Of a DNA stretch of 10,293 nucleotides, positions 5,618 to 10,293 are shown piece by piece. The position numbers and the translations under genes were made by a program. This DNA is from Aquificaceae bacterium (lineage in GTDB: Bacteria; Aquificota; Aquificia; Aquificales; Aquificaceae): positions 1-10,293 of the forward strand of contig JANWYC010000024.1 in the NCBI GenBank assembly GCA_025057245.1. The letters are read 5' to 3'. Every line of letters starts with the position of its first letter. Positions within the stretch are counted from its first letter, which is position 1. The notes under the pieces were generated by a model. It was not told where the DNA came from. It ran no database searches and saw nothing but the letters and a program-made list of their open reading frames with translations.

Positions 5618-8416
5618 ATGGTAGACTGGCTTATAAGAAAAATATTAGGCACGAAGAGTGACCGTGAGGTAAAAAGGCTTCGCAAGATAGTTCAGAGGAT
5701 AAATCAGAAGGAAAAGGAGCTTGACCAGCTTAGCAACTTACAGCTCAGAGAGCTGGCAAGAGGGCTCCACCAGAGTATATCTCAGGAAGAGCTAAAGGAA
5801 AAGATAAGGGATGGAGAGATAGTGCAGGAGGTTGAGACGGTCTTTGCTCTGGTAAGGGAAGTAGGTAAAAGGACGCTGGGTCTTAGGTTCTTTGACGTGC
5901 AGTTAATCGGTGGTCTTGTTCTCCACGAGGGCAAGATTTCCGAGATGAAAACTGGGGAAGGTAAGACTTTGGTGGCTACATCCGCAACAGCGCTTAACGC
6001 TATGACAAACGAAGGCGTCCATGTGGTAACCGTCAACGACTATCTGGCGAGGAGGGACGCGCAGTGGATGGGTGCTATCTACCTGTTTTTAGGTCTTGAT
6101 GTGGGAGTGATAAACTCTGACTACAGTTCTTACAAAGTAGAGTGGGCTGACCCAGAGCTGGCGGAGAGAGCCATAGCGGAGGACTGGAGGGTATGGCCAA
6201 AGGGTTACTTTGAGGAAACGCTACCCTCAGAGCTTATATCCGTTCAAGCAAAGAAGGCTTTTTACACAAAGTTGAACCCTTGCACCAGAAGGCAGGCTTA
6301 CGAGTGTCACATAACTTACGGAACTAACAACGAGTTTGGTTTTGACTATCTGAGGGACAACATGGCTTTCTCCCTTGAGGAGCTGGTGCAGGTCAAGGGG
6401 CACAACTTTGCCATAGTGGACGAGGTGGATTCCATACTTATTGACGAAGCCAGAACACCTCTAATAATCTCTGGTCCTGCGGAGATGGATACTTCGGTCT
6501 ACTACAAGGCGGATGAGGTGGTAAGGAAGCTAAAACCTGAAGTGCACTTCGTGGTTGACGAAAAGAACAGAACGGTTCAGTTAACGGAGGAGGGTATAAA
6601 AACCGCCGAAGAGCTCTTAGGTGTGGATAACTTGTATGACATAAGGCGAATAGACATCTTACATGCGATTAACCAAGCCTTGAGGGCTCACAACCTCTTT
6701 AGGAAAGATGTTCATTACATAGTCAGAGACGGGGAGGTTCTCATAGTGGATGAGTTCACTGGTAGAGTGCTTCCGGGTAGAAGGTGGAGTGATGGATTGC
6801 ATCAGGCTATAGAGGTAAAGGAAGGCGTTCCAATACAACAAGAGAACCAAACACTTGCCACCATAACCTTTCAGAACTACTTCAAACTCTACAGAAAACT
6901 CTCTGGTATGACTGGCACTGCGGAGACCGAAGCCCTTGAGTTTAAGGAAATATACGGGCTTGAGGTGGTGGTAGTCCCCACTCACAGACCTATGAGAAGA
7001 AAAGACCATCCGGATACCATGTTCAAGACAAAAAGTGAAAAGTGGGAGGCTGTGGTAGAACTAATAAGCCAAGAACACGAAAAGGGTAGACCTATTCTGG
7101 TAGGCACTGTCTCCATAGAAGATTCAGAGCACCTTTCCAAGCTCTTACAAAAGAGAGGTATAAAACACAACGTGCTAAACGCCAAACATCACGAAAGGGA
7201 AGCGGAGATTATAGCTCAGGCTGGTAGGGTGGGTGCGGTCACCATATCCACAAACATGGCAGGTAGGGGAACGGACATACTTTTAGGTGGAAACCCAGAA
7301 TACCTTGCGAGAGAAATACTCAGGTCAAAAGGCAAGTCTCCAGAGGAAAGCACGGAGGAAGAGTGGAAAAGTGCCTTAGAATCCGCTTACAGAATTACTG
7401 AAGAGGAGAAGAAGAAAGTAGTAGAGCTGGGCGGTCTTTTGGTTATAGGCACAGAAAGGCACGAGTCCAGAAGGATAGACAATCAGCTAAGAGGAAGGGC
7501 GGGAAGGCAGGGCGACCCGGGCGAGTCTCGATTTATCCTGTCCTTAGAAGACGACCTAATGAGAATATTTGGTGGAGACAGAGTTAAAAAGCTAATGGAT
7601 ATGCTTAAAATACCACCAGGAGAGCCCATTGAAAGTGGTATGGTAACCAAAGCCATACAGAACGCTCAGAAAAGAGTGGAAGCTCAAAACTTCCAGATAA
7701 GGAAAAGGCTTCTTGAATACGACATGGTTATGAACACTCAAAGGCTTACCGTGTATTCCATGAGAAGGGACATGCTCGAAGGTAAAGGTCTTGAGGAATA
7801 CCTAAGGGAGTTTATACACGACCTTGTAAGTCAAAAGGTGGAAGAGACCATAAGAGAAGAAGAGCCAGAGCTGTGGGAGCTTGAACCTCTTAGGAACTAC
7901 ATAAAGGAGCTTCTGGGCTTAGAAGTGGACATGCCTCAAGCAAGGGATAGGCAAGAGTTGATAGACCTTTTGAGCGATGCGGTGCTTAAGGCAGTGGAAG
8001 CAAAAAAGCAGGAGTTGGGTGAGCCTGTTTTCTACGAGCTTTTAAAGGTGTTGATGCTCTCAAACCTTGACCATCTTTGGAGGGAGCATTTGCATACCAT
8101 GGATAGGCTCAGAGAGAGCATCTACTTAAGAGGTTATGCGTCAAGGGACCCTCTCGTGGAATACAAGAAAGAAGCCTTCTACCTTTTTGAAGACATGCTC
8201 TACAGACTGAGGGAGAGAGTCGTTTCAGACATTTTCCACATGCAGGTAAGAACTCAGGAGGAGCTGGAGGAAGAGGTCAGGAGAGAGGAGGAACGCACGC
8301 AAAAACTTTTAAGCCTGGCGGTTTTCAGCGGGGTGGAAGGAAAGGCAGATCAATCTCAAAAGGGTCCAAAGAGAAAAACTCTGAGAGAGCGACTGCAGGC
8401 AAGGAGAAAGAAATAG
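5618..8416 (+). CDS. secA: Preprotein translocase ATPase SecA
   Basis: The 932-residue protein is the cytoplasmic motor that drives secretory proteins through SecYEG using ATP. Visible motifs are MKTGEGKT (Walker A, K116), VNDYLARRD (139-147), YGTNNEFGFDYLRDN (234-248), VDEVDSILIDEARTPLIISG (Walker B/DEAD-like, 267-286), TGRVLPGRRWSDGLHQAIE (381-399), STNMAGRGTDI (544-554) and GRAGRQGDPG (626-635). The C-terminal half holds the preprotein cross-linking/helical scaffold regions. Residues about 167-224 are an insertion relative to E. coli SecA, in the first ATPase domain, of a type I recall from Aquificales and Thermotogae. The last 30 residues are basic (RKTLRERLQARRKK) and contain no zinc-binding CxCxS...CC/H motif, so SecB or lipid contact through that motif is not expected. 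The final 92 bp overlap the Sua5-family gene on the other strand. No ribosome site is seen. Confidence 0.98.
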   Translation: MVDWLIRKILGTKSDREVKRLRKIVQRINQKEKELDQLSNLQLRELARGLHQSISQEELKEKIRDGEIVQEVETVFALVREVGKRTLGLRFFDVQLIGGLVLHEGKISEMKTGEGKTLVATSATALNAMTNEGVHVVTVNDYLARRDAQWMGAIYLFLGLDVGVINSDYSSYKVEWADPELAERAIAEDWRVWPKGYFEETLPSELISVQAKKAFYTKLNPCTRRQAYECHITYGTNNEFGFDYLRDNMAFSLEELVQVKGHNFAIVDEVDSILIDEARTPLIISGPAEMDTSVYYKADEVVRKLKPEVHFVVDEKNRTVQLTEEGIKTAEELLGVDNLYDIRRIDILHAINQALRAHNLFRKDVHYIVRDGEVLIVDEFTGRVLPGRRWSDGLHQAIEVKEGVPIQQENQTLATITFQNYFKLYRKLSGMTGTAETEALEFKEIYGLEVVVVPTHRPMRRKDHPDTMFKTKSEKWEAVVELISQEHEKGRPILVGTVSIEDSEHLSKLLQKRGIKHNVLNAKHHEREAEIIAQAGRVGAVTISTNMAGRGTDILLGGNPEYLAREILRSKGKSPEESTEEEWKSALESAYRITEEEKKKVVELGGLLVIGTERHESRRIDNQLRGRAGRQGDPGESRFILSLEDDLMRIFGGDRVKKLMDMLKIPPGEPIESGMVTKAIQNAQKRVEAQNFQIRKRLLEYDMVMNTQRLTVYSMRRDMLEGKGLEEYLREFIHDLVSQKVEETIREEEPELWELEPLRNYIKELLGLEVDMPQARDRQELIDLLSDAVLKAVEAKKQELGEPVFYELLKVLMLSNLDHLWREHLHTMDRLRESIYLRGYASRDPLVEYKKEAFYLFEDMLYRLRERVVSDIFHMQVRTQEELEEEVRREEERTQKLLSLAVFSGVEGKADQSQKGPKRKTLRERLQARRKK

Positions 8417-9029
8417 GTTTAAAGTTTGTGTAGAAGTCAAATATGTATTTGAACTGTATGTTGCCTTCCCTTACGAGCCTTATACCCTTTGGATACATTA
8501 ACCTTACAATGGTTGACGGTTTGCCCTTCCTTGTGCCTCCATTTATGTACAGGTCCACTTTATCGCCGAAGTATTGCATGGCTTCCTTTACCGTAGTTGC
8601 GGGTTTCTCTCCCTCTGGGTTTGCGCTGGGTGCTACCAGTGGAACGTTCAAAATTTTAAGAAGCTCAAACACATGACTTTGGGCTTTTGGCTTTCTAACC
8701 GCAAGGCTCTTCCCACTCCTTGTAAGAAAGAGGGGAAGCCTGTTCCACTTGTAGAATATGAACGTTGCAGGATAGGTCTGCACCAGAGCTTCGTGTCGTT
8801 CAGTAAACATCAGACCAAGGTCGCGTAGCCATGCAACGTTGGGAATAAGTAAGAGGAAAGGTCTACCGCTCGGTCTTCTTATGGAATACAGCCTCTCCAC
8901 CGCCTCTCCGTTGCTCGCATCTGCCAGAAGACCGTATATGGTGTCTGTGGGAAAGCACACTATACCGCCGTTAGATAGCACATCCGCTACATCTTCCAGA
9001 ACCGTCCTCGTCAGCTTTTTTACTTTCAC
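8325..9029 (-). CDS. Sua5/YciO/YrdC-family protein (probable threonylcarbamoyl-AMP synthase)
   Basis: The 234-residue protein has one YrdC-type domain (about 1-204). TsaC/Sua5 proteins make threonylcarbamoyl-AMP from threonine, bicarbonate and ATP for the universal t6A37 modification of ANN-decoding tRNAs. Seen here: GGIVCFPTDTIYGL (21-34), RRPSGRPF (51-58), SLAVRKPK, VPLVAPSANPEGEKPATT, and IRLVREG near the domain end. In my alignment the lysine of the usual KxRP motif is replaced (YSIRRP, I50 at that place, R51 next), so activity should not be assumed; a YciO-like relative is the alternative. The start is GTG, chosen because it gives the normal family N-terminus; no ATG or ribosome site lies just upstream. 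Residues 205-234 are encoded antisense to the end of secA and lie beyond the domain. A sigma-70-like promoter sits about 200 bases upstream. Confidence 0.87.
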   Translation of the reverse strand: MKVKKLTRTVLEDVADVLSNGGIVCFPTDTIYGLLADASNGEAVERLYSIRRPSGRPFLLLIPNVAWLRDLGLMFTERHEALVQTYPATFIFYKWNRLPLFLTRSGKSLAVRKPKAQSHVFELLKILNVPLVAPSANPEGEKPATTVKEAMQYFGDKVDLYINGGTRKGKPSTIVRLMYPKGIRLVREGNIQFKYIFDFYTNFKPISFSLPAVALSEFFSLDPFEIDLPFLPPR

Positions 9030-9581: not shown

Positions 9582-9908
9582 TTAGGTTTCGTTGACCCTA
9601 TAGCCAAATCGTTGAATTACTTCCACAGGATTTGTAGCAAGAATGAGCTCCCTGTGAAGCTTTTTTAGTTTCTCTCGGTTAGTTTCCGCCTTGATTTGCT
9701 CTTCCAATTGTTTTGGCACCTCACCAAGCTTTACTTCCAACACATCAAGCACCATCTCCTGAGCATCTTCTAATAGCCCCTCAAACCTTCCTTCAAGTCT
9801 CCCCTCGAGCCTTCCCTCGAGCCTTCCCTCAAGCCTTCCCTGCTGTAAGCCCTGTTGCAAACCCAACTCATATTTCATCTCTGAATAGGTCTTCAACTCA
9901 AACTCCAC
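9582..9908 (-). CDS. Candidate internal product RpnS (intragenic antitoxin) in the Rpn gene
   Basis: An in-frame GTG at 9908 is preceded by AGGAGGTG (9921-9914) with 5 bases between. This is as strong as the ribosome sites at 43-50 and 497-504. Translation from here gives 108 residues starting VEFELKTYSEM and containing the whole tetrapeptide-repeat array and the C-terminal tail. In described Rpn systems, a separately translated C-terminal domain of about this size dimerises and blocks the toxic full-length nuclease. Caveat: the same bases encode Gly-Gly-Glu in the long protein, so a chance ribosome site is possible. The alternative ATG at 9878 has no good site. Confidence 0.45.
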   Translation of the reverse strand: MEFELKTYSEMKYELGLQQGLQQGRLEGRLEGRLEGRLEGRFEGLLEDAQEMVLDVLEVKLGEVPKQLEEQIKAETNREKLKKLHRELILATNPVEVIQRFGYRVNET

Positions 9909-10293
9909 TCTTTCACCTCCTACTTCTCTCAATTTAATCAACACCTCCTCCCAGTCAAGACCCTTTTCCTTTGACACTATCAACACAAACAACTCCACAT
10001 ACCACCGCTCCCTCTCCCCTAACTTCCCCATCACCTCCGCAAACCTCACTATCCCCATCAATAACTCCTCAAGCGGTCTGTCAAGATTCCTAAGCAAGTA
10101 AAGGTATGTATACATCACACTATATAGCTCAATCCTCTTCAAAAGGTCCTCTCGGTTAAGGCTTACCAAGTCAAGAAGTAACACCCTGTAGTTTAGAAAG
10201 TAAGACCTAATCTCAGAAGGTATTTCAAAGAGTTCCACAAACTCAACAGGATAAAGCCAAGGCTTTTCTCCGTGATAGAATATGAAAGGAAGC
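9582..10293 (-). CDS. Rpn-family nuclease/putative transposase, C-terminal part (runs off right edge)
   Basis: The frame is open to the window edge, so 236 codons plus stop are seen and the true start lies outside. The GTG at 10238 is internal: upstream codons read FYHGEKPWLYPVEF, a typical Rpn segment (YHG...PW) that continues into ELFEIPSEI. Rpn proteins are PD-(D/E)XK nucleases; the catalytic N-terminal domain (roughly the first 100 residues) is outside this window, so its integrity is unknown. The visible part holds a helical middle region, then eight consecutive four-residue repeats (two GLQQ, four GRLE, GRFE, GLLE) and a coiled C-terminal tail ending RFGYRVNET. Repeats of this kind are a hallmark of the family's variable C-terminal domain. 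Rpn genes have been described as intragenic toxin-antitoxin, anti-phage systems; a candidate internal start is at 9908. No transposon ends are seen, so mobility is not supported here. Confidence 0.9.
   Translation of the reverse strand, partial: LPFIFYHGEKPWLYPVEFVELFEIPSEIRSYFLNYRVLLLDLVSLNREDLLKRIELYSVMYTYLYLLRNLDRPLEELLMGIVRFAEVMGKLGERERWYVELFVLIVSKEKGLDWEEVLIKLREVGGERVEFELKTYSEMKYELGLQQGLQQGRLEGRLEGRLEGRLEGRFEGLLEDAQEMVLDVLEVKLGEVPKQLEEQIKAETNREKLKKLHRELILATNPVEVIQRFGYRVNET
9768..9863 (-). repeat. Eight 12-bp units encoding tetrapeptide repeats
   Basis: Reading on the minus strand, the units encode GLQQ, GLQQ, GRLE, GRLE, GRLE, GRLE, GRFE and GLLE. The DNA of the units at 9816-9827 and 9804-9815 is identical (GGAAGGCTCGAG), and 9828-9839 differs from them by one base. 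The array keeps frame because each unit is 12 bases. It sits in the C-terminal domain of the Rpn protein. Confidence 0.9.
9914..9921 (-). promoter_or_regulatory. Internal consensus ribosome binding site in the Rpn gene
   Basis: AGGAGGTG on the minus strand, complementary to the 16S anti-Shine-Dalgarno, 5 bases before the in-frame GTG at 9908. A second AGGAGGTG at 9949-9942 has no well-placed ATG or GTG. Confidence 0.5.
9931..9958 (-). promoter_or_regulatory. Promoter-like sequence inside the Rpn gene
   Basis: On the minus strand TTGACT (9958-9953) and TAAATT (9936-9931) are 16 bases apart. The predicted start near 9924 would give a leader of about 16 bases holding just the ribosome site and then the GTG at 9908. 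The -10 matches only 4 of 6 and the spacer is one short. Confidence 0.3.

Follow-up and report, generated by a model that had tools for sequence, protein, structure and literature searches.

Organization of the rpn locus

The window, i.e. the whole stretch of 10,293 nucleotides that was analyzed, is the entire contig C166 of an Aquificaceae genome of 1,306,173 bases in 265 contigs. An Rpn-type gene on its minus strand (9582..10293) is open at the 5' end, the contig end truncating the gene at 10293. The corresponding ORF (9582-10292) terminates at 9582, stop counted, and hosts an internal GTG in frame. The locus comprises the following features.

9582..10293, minus strand: Rpn (YhgA-like, PF04754) nuclease gene, 3' portion; 236 codons, with the catalytic part missing together with the 5' end
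9931..9958, minus strand: candidate internal promoter TTGACT-16-TAAATT, 22 nt before the internal start; RNA start predicted near 9924
9914..9921, minus strand: Shine-Dalgarno sequence AGGAGGTG; anti-Shine-Dalgarno duplex of -14.5 kcal/mol
9906..9908, minus strand: internal start GTG; GTG or ATG in 16/16 sequences listed
9780..9863, minus strand: seven tetrapeptide repeat units (GLQQ GLQQ GRLE GRLE GRLE GRLE GRFE), 15 residues past the internal start
9582..9908, minus strand: predicted RpnS, 108 amino acids; one long helix, then three short helices

The window fragment matches PF04754 with 30 bits (Pfam cut-off 21), in agreement with the preliminary description, which had named an Rpn gene as the host; the full-length relative L031 scores 102.8 bits. 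The tail matches DUF4351 (PF14261) weakly over profile positions 2-33 (E 0.008, 16.7 bits versus a cut-off of 25). A PADLOC run gave a best match of E 0.22, a score that does not exclude a role in phage defence. Among 8000 candidates scored, 70 proteins related to the window product were found, within bounds set by candidate number and E-value. The closest seven listed (P0001-P0007, 67-87% identity) are Rpn-family proteins of Caldimicrobium, Thermodesulfobacteriaceae, and an Aquificaceae MAG, and P0002 and P0005, the two longest close relatives with a Met start, comprise 338 and 340 amino acids. A second partial rpn copy of the same genome lies at the start of contig C6.

Rpn nucleases feature the catalytic motif D ... 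E-x-K/Q. The catalytic candidates D61 and E80 (P0002 numbering) are nearly invariant across 40 aligned full-length relatives; because the 5' end of the window gene is missing, we infer its catalytic residues from these close relatives. The predicted model of P0002 (pLDDT 85) is organized in an α/β head, with weak matches to PD-(D/E)XK nucleases over residues up to ∼159, and one helix (residues 228-291, with low confidence at ∼258-270) that spans the junction and the repeats.

The internal start and its ribosome site

Positions 9923-9903 of the minus strand read GTAGGAGGTGAAAGAGTGGAG, in which AGGAGGTG is separated from the GTG by a spacer of five bases (9913-9909). This is exact to the letter what the preliminary description had claimed, namely a ribosome site of this type, 5 bases, and an in-frame GTG at 9908 giving ∼108 residues. 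The same description had placed the start just before the tetrapeptide repeats and found that the order of ribosome site, start, repeats, and tail fits the known architecture; this order is present in the window, and the repeats begin 15 residues on. The number of repeat units per copy varies from 3 to 12 in the sequence cluster of the window (14 genes). The short form was predicted by AlphaFold2 (pLDDT 88) as a helix of residues 2-61 followed by three short helices.

The pattern AGGAGGTGA-N4-RTG has a single match in the 1.31-Mb genome, the window site, and a reversed-pattern control likewise has one match. A second in-frame candidate, TTG 9932, lies behind GAGGAGGTG, with -14.8 versus -14.5 kcal/mol for GTG 9908 by the simple duplex measure. 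It was rejected as a conserved start, because the codon is TTA in 14 of the 16 sequences listed, and only GTG 9908 is conserved.

Conservation of the junction start

Conservation of the ribosome site at synonymous positions, the check suggested in the preliminary description, gives a mixed picture in the 15 close copies: the second Gly codon is GGT in 15/15, but the first is GGA in seven and GGG in eight (never GGC or GGT). The GGG variant interrupts AGGAGG in these 8/15 copies; with either codon, base pairing to the anti-Shine-Dalgarno sequence stays possible through A-U or G-U. The start codon is GTG in 12 and ATG in 3 copies. By itself, this set is weak, because 41% of the 156 codon columns examined are without synonymous variation.

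For a wider set, 151 genomes (including that of the window) were searched, 17 of which had matches, and 38 named loci were added. From 126 profile hits, we retained 76 genes (ORFs of at least 225 amino acids and more than 175 bits, the regions to fetch being chosen by frame length), which form 15 single-linkage clusters at 50% identity. With a threshold of ≤ -9 kcal/mol for the anti-Shine-Dalgarno duplex at an in-frame ATG or GTG, the junction start passes in 76/76 genes (ATG 63, GTG 13; median -12.6 kcal/mol). At other positions of these genes, it is passed by 51 of 1311 in-frame starts and by 58 of 1839 that are out of frame. In 69 of the 76 genes, the site with the best score falls in the same three alignment columns. 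The left-out short or contig-end ORFs with a recognizable junction (14, the motif search missing some junctions) all exhibit duplexes of -10.7 or stronger.

The GGAGG core occurs in two codon phases (36 and 40 genes), and the residues encoding it vary, with Gly-Gly-Glu, Glu-Glu-Val, Lys-Glu-Glu, and Gln-Glu-Asp among others. When one gene per cluster was subjected to synonymous shuffling, the summed energy of -173.0 was reached in 0/1000 shuffles (null -92.7, sd 11.6, minimum -134.3), and all 15 clusters pass -9 versus a null mean of 4.9 and a maximum of 9. Gene by gene, the shuffles are mostly not significant (p ≤ 0.05 in 10/76), because Gly-Gly, Glu-Glu, and Met already encode much of the signal. 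In the pooled comparison, the junction ribosome site is maintained by codon choice as well as by protein sequence, with selection at synonymous sites.

Regions fetched afterwards provided 16 readable held-out junctions, excluding five already-seen ORFs and ORFs that do not span the junction and coming mostly from already-sampled genomes; 14 of them pass -9. The two exceptions are L147, with -7.3 yet the best site of its own gene, and L159, which has a broken head frame and keeps the ribosome site but carries ATA instead of ATG.

Natural derivatives and damaged copies

In at least 11 copies away from contig ends (L005, L036, L045, L093, L102, L103, L149, L156, L158, L161, and L162), the head frame is broken or deleted, and the ribosome site, the start, and the tail frame are intact; the final tail residues differ in L161. 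Part of the head breaks may be sequencing or assembly errors. In L158, L161, and L162, the head is reduced to a short out-of-frame stub directly before an intact ATAGGAGGTGAAGA unit and an ATG, and these (L158:897-1172, L161, and L162, minus strand) are putative natural antitoxin-only genes. L078 and L026 possess an extra tail gene with the same internal start 21 nt past the rpn stop. Two free tails are without a working site, L012:1874-2119 (ATA) and L100:2088-2348 (ATG, no ribosome site), and L042 and L159 show damage in both head and tail.

Among the whole, stop-free PF04754 heads listed in a head-side search, 28/29 reside in open frames of at least 302 amino acids. The exception, the short head L007, has a stop followed by a tail ORF whose site is weaker (-8.4).

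A second, divergent head type

One representative each of clusters 0, 4, 6, 13, and 14 was run against Pfam, and all five heads remain under all cut-offs. Two cluster-0 genes and L150 are among the matches listed for PF04754 and barely reach it (21.6, 22.1, and 21.1 bits versus 21). Because these few members just reach the cut-off, the divergent head is to be regarded as a remote relative and not as unknown. Genes with either head type are alike in junction start, ribosome site, and repeats, and their tails are often common to both within a genome. A partial head of the divergent type (L002:564-1175) adjoins the second rpn tail of the window's own genome on contig C6.

Comparison with Rpn of E. 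coli and C. difficile

RpnL/RpnS of Escherichia coli K-12 (rpnA-E) and Clostridioides difficile were described as intragenic toxin-antitoxin (Zhong et al. 2023, PMC10327210). Internal start, repeats, antitoxin activity, and phage defence were published there already, and co-expression of both forms was stated to be probably broadly conserved (PMC10327210). The start at codon 244 of RpnA was mutated experimentally, and PDB entry 7th0 spans RpnA 244-292, its first residue corresponding to this start. Our scan of four of the five E. coli K-12 rpn genes lists the ATG of rpnA codon 244 and its counterparts in rpnB, rpnC, and rpnE. The junction duplex passes -9 in rpnC (-10.8) and reaches -8.0 in rpnA, rpnB, and rpnE; among the internal sites, the junction ranks first in rpnB and rpnC, second in rpnE, and third in rpnA, with the higher-ranking codons of rpnE and rpnA scoring just slightly better. 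In rpnB, the duplex of the long-form start (-10.3) is stronger than that of the junction (-8.0).

The window gene shares with E. coli Rpn the PF04754 head, the in-frame internal start with a ribosome site at the head/tail junction, the variable tetrapeptide repeats, a tail predicted to be helical, and the occurrence of free-standing tail copies. In contrast to the E. coli genes, the window start is a GTG, and its ribosome site lies nearer to the consensus (-14.5 versus -8.0 to -10.8 in the four genes). The repeats were reported to start 8-20 amino acids past the internal start (PMC10327210), a range that covers the 15 residues of the window; across our set of 76 genes (75 with repeats), the first repeat is found 10-36 residues past the start, some thus lying outside this range. 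DUF4351 was named as a free-standing RpnS in some species (PMC10327210), whereas the window match is below the cut-off, and E ≤ 0.01 is reached in 6 of 66 tails. The tail alignment A3 comprises 66 of the 76 tails. A profile of the window tail did not retrieve 7th0 and so gave no sequence relation of the tail to E. coli RpnAS. Among the papers listed in a literature search, no other one treats RpnS; in the passages covered, a 2025 review (PMC12707154) only cites the Rpn work, and the main text of PMC10327210 has no occurrence of Aquific-, thermophil-, leaderless, or Caldimicrobium.

Promoter and long-form start signals

Taken alone, the promoter candidate of the window is at chance level. Across the 15 clusters, sigma-70-like sites ending 20-45 nt before the internal start give a sum of 130 versus 112.8 (sd 4.1) in synonymous shuffles (0/300), with the 20-45 interval picked post hoc and the pre-set interval of 14-150 nt giving 2/200. 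Promoter matches of at least 9/12 occur in 10 of 15 clusters in the 20-45 interval, compared with 3.7 expected, and six intervals farther upstream show no excess over synonymous shuffles. A score of 9/12 is reached by 45 of the 76 genes; clusters 2 and 3 (20 genes) and clusters 8, 11, and 14 (four genes) contribute nothing to this count. Unlike these candidates, the four E. coli rpn genes have no such site at that distance; internal RNA starts were reported for these genes (PMC10327210).

Long-form starts were compared in 71 genes with a closed 5' end and at least 270 amino acids; the counts contain related and hence non-independent genes, and the window gene lacks its own long-form start. In 71/71 genes, no duplex in the first 45 codons is as strong as that of the junction. 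A duplex passing -6 in the first 12 codons is found in 9/71 rpn genes versus 116/249 other genes of genome G013. A -10 box with its end exactly six bases ahead of a start codon occurs in 32/71 versus 13/249; at this distance, RNA synthesis would begin at the start codon itself. Cluster by cluster, a box at 5-8 nt is present in 15/16 genes of cluster 0, 10/12 of cluster 1 (which contains the window gene), 4/6 of cluster 4, 3/3 of cluster 6, and 5/14 of cluster 2, and in 0/20 genes of the remaining clusters. Examples of the leaderless type are L031:2440-2500 and L047:2793-2854, with a -10 box end six or seven bases ahead of the start codon and without a ribosome site.

The toxin mRNA is therefore predicted to be leaderless in clusters 0, 1, 4, and 6 and in part of cluster 2. 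By the example of its close relatives, the long-form start of the window gene would likewise be devoid of a ribosome site. The long-form starts of these relatives, most of them leaderless-looking, differ from those of the four E. coli genes, where the duplexes range from -3.5 to -10.3.

Exchange of tails between heads

Tails on different heads have a median identity of 0.45 within a genome (90th percentile 0.87; 73 pairs), compared with 0.31 between genomes (2413 pairs). When labels were permuted within head clusters, 0/2000 permutations reached the observed mean tail identity. The pairs L034/L047, L022/L008, L010/L008, and L005/L074 carry tails of 81-94% DNA identity on unrelated heads, in one genome or in two genomes of one genus, and the DNA they have in common extends from the repeat region to the stop codon at most. 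For L034/L047, L022/L008, and L005/L074, the DNA match opens downstream of the internal start, within the repeats or close to them, and closes near the stop codon, so that the repeats look like a joint for the movement of tails between unrelated heads.

The rpn genes are also frequent contig breakpoints (window 10293; L002:1; the starts of L046, L048, L049, L054, L057, and others), as would be expected if several copies of tails and repeats per genome hamper assembly from short reads.

A two-product reading of the window gene

We consider it likely that the window gene is a two-product Rpn locus with an RpnS antitoxin made from the internal GTG 9908. The full-length product RpnL would be a PD-(D/E)XK-type DNA nuclease that is toxic to its own cell. 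RpnS (108 amino acids, repeats and tail) would be translated from GTG 9908 behind the near-perfect ribosome site, in excess, and probably from a separate short RNA as well; it would block RpnL by binding to the matching repeat and tail; the locus probably serves phage defence. For RpnS production, toxicity, neutralization, and defence, we infer from the work on E. coli and C. difficile. The gene-within-gene arrangement proposed in the preliminary description gains support from the junction start in all 76 discovery genes, the 14 of 16 held-out junctions, and the same junction in E. coli RpnA.

In principle, the internal product might serve an active nuclease complex as a subunit, structural or regulatory, instead of acting as an antitoxin, as Cas11d, which is made inside Cas10d, exemplifies. 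The predicted single long helix is of the dimerization kind, and one complex was found to hold two RpnAL together with two RpnAS (PMC10327210), both of which would suit a subunit. However, E. coli RpnS counters growth inhibition, SOS induction, and cleavage (PMC10327210), and head-less tails exist, yet whole heads lack an in-frame tail in just 1/29 cases, as would be predicted for an antitoxin. A subunit role is therefore unlikely.

It is rather improbable that the window locus, lying at a contig end, is a repeat copy in decay or a product of misassembly, with neither toxin nor antitoxin activity in its genome. Such a status would be in line with the gene reaching the contig end, with the second partial copy on contig C6, and with the origin of its DNA matches: over alignments of 416-728 bases, the window rpn DNA is 80-93% identical to twelve copies in Caldimicrobium and 77-85% identical to three Thermodesulfobacteriaceae copies, both groups belonging to another phylum, Thermodesulfobacteriota. 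Against decay or misassembly stand the intact open frame, ribosome site, start, and tail in the window, the 86% identity to the Aquificaceae MAG protein, and the neighboring gene Sua5 (8325-9029), whose closest named relatives are from Aquificaceae, which makes an Aquificaceae origin of the contig probable. The similarity of the rpn DNA, set against this Aquificaceae-like neighbor, suggests a recent transfer across phyla; alternatively, the contig end may be misjoined.

That the motif is a mere by-product of a conserved Gly-Gly-Glu-Arg-Val at the domain junction, without initiation, is very improbable: shuffles of single genes seldom reach significance, GAG and GGA are common in the coding sequence around the site, and another Shine-Dalgarno-like site lies 24 nt upstream in the window, but the pooled shuffles (0/1000), the recurrence of the same nucleotide motif from different amino acids in two codon phases, its retention in head-deletion derivatives without a head frame, and the experimentally verified E. 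coli start at the same junction all argue for initiation.

Implications for the Rpn family

With a two-product reading, the intragenic antitoxin described in E. coli and C. difficile would also occur in Aquificaceae and their relatives, in Caldimicrobium, and with a divergent head type. New in this respect is the comparative sequence evidence that points to an internal start in the Aquificaceae relatives, in Caldimicrobium, and with the divergent head type; also new are the close candidate internal promoter, the leaderless-looking toxin start, the apparent exchange of tails, and the putative head-deletion derivatives.

More tentatively, and on balance doubtfully, the toxin might be made from a leaderless RNA and the antitoxin from an internal promoter and a near-perfect ribosome site, with tails being exchangeable genome-wide via the repeats between unrelated heads. 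If this were true, a shift between leaderless and Shine-Dalgarno initiation would alter the toxin/antitoxin ratio without degradation of the antitoxin. The release of RpnL is a key unresolved issue according to the original authors (PMC10327210), and the split between leaderless and Shine-Dalgarno initiation would then be a possible and directly testable answer to how RpnL is released.
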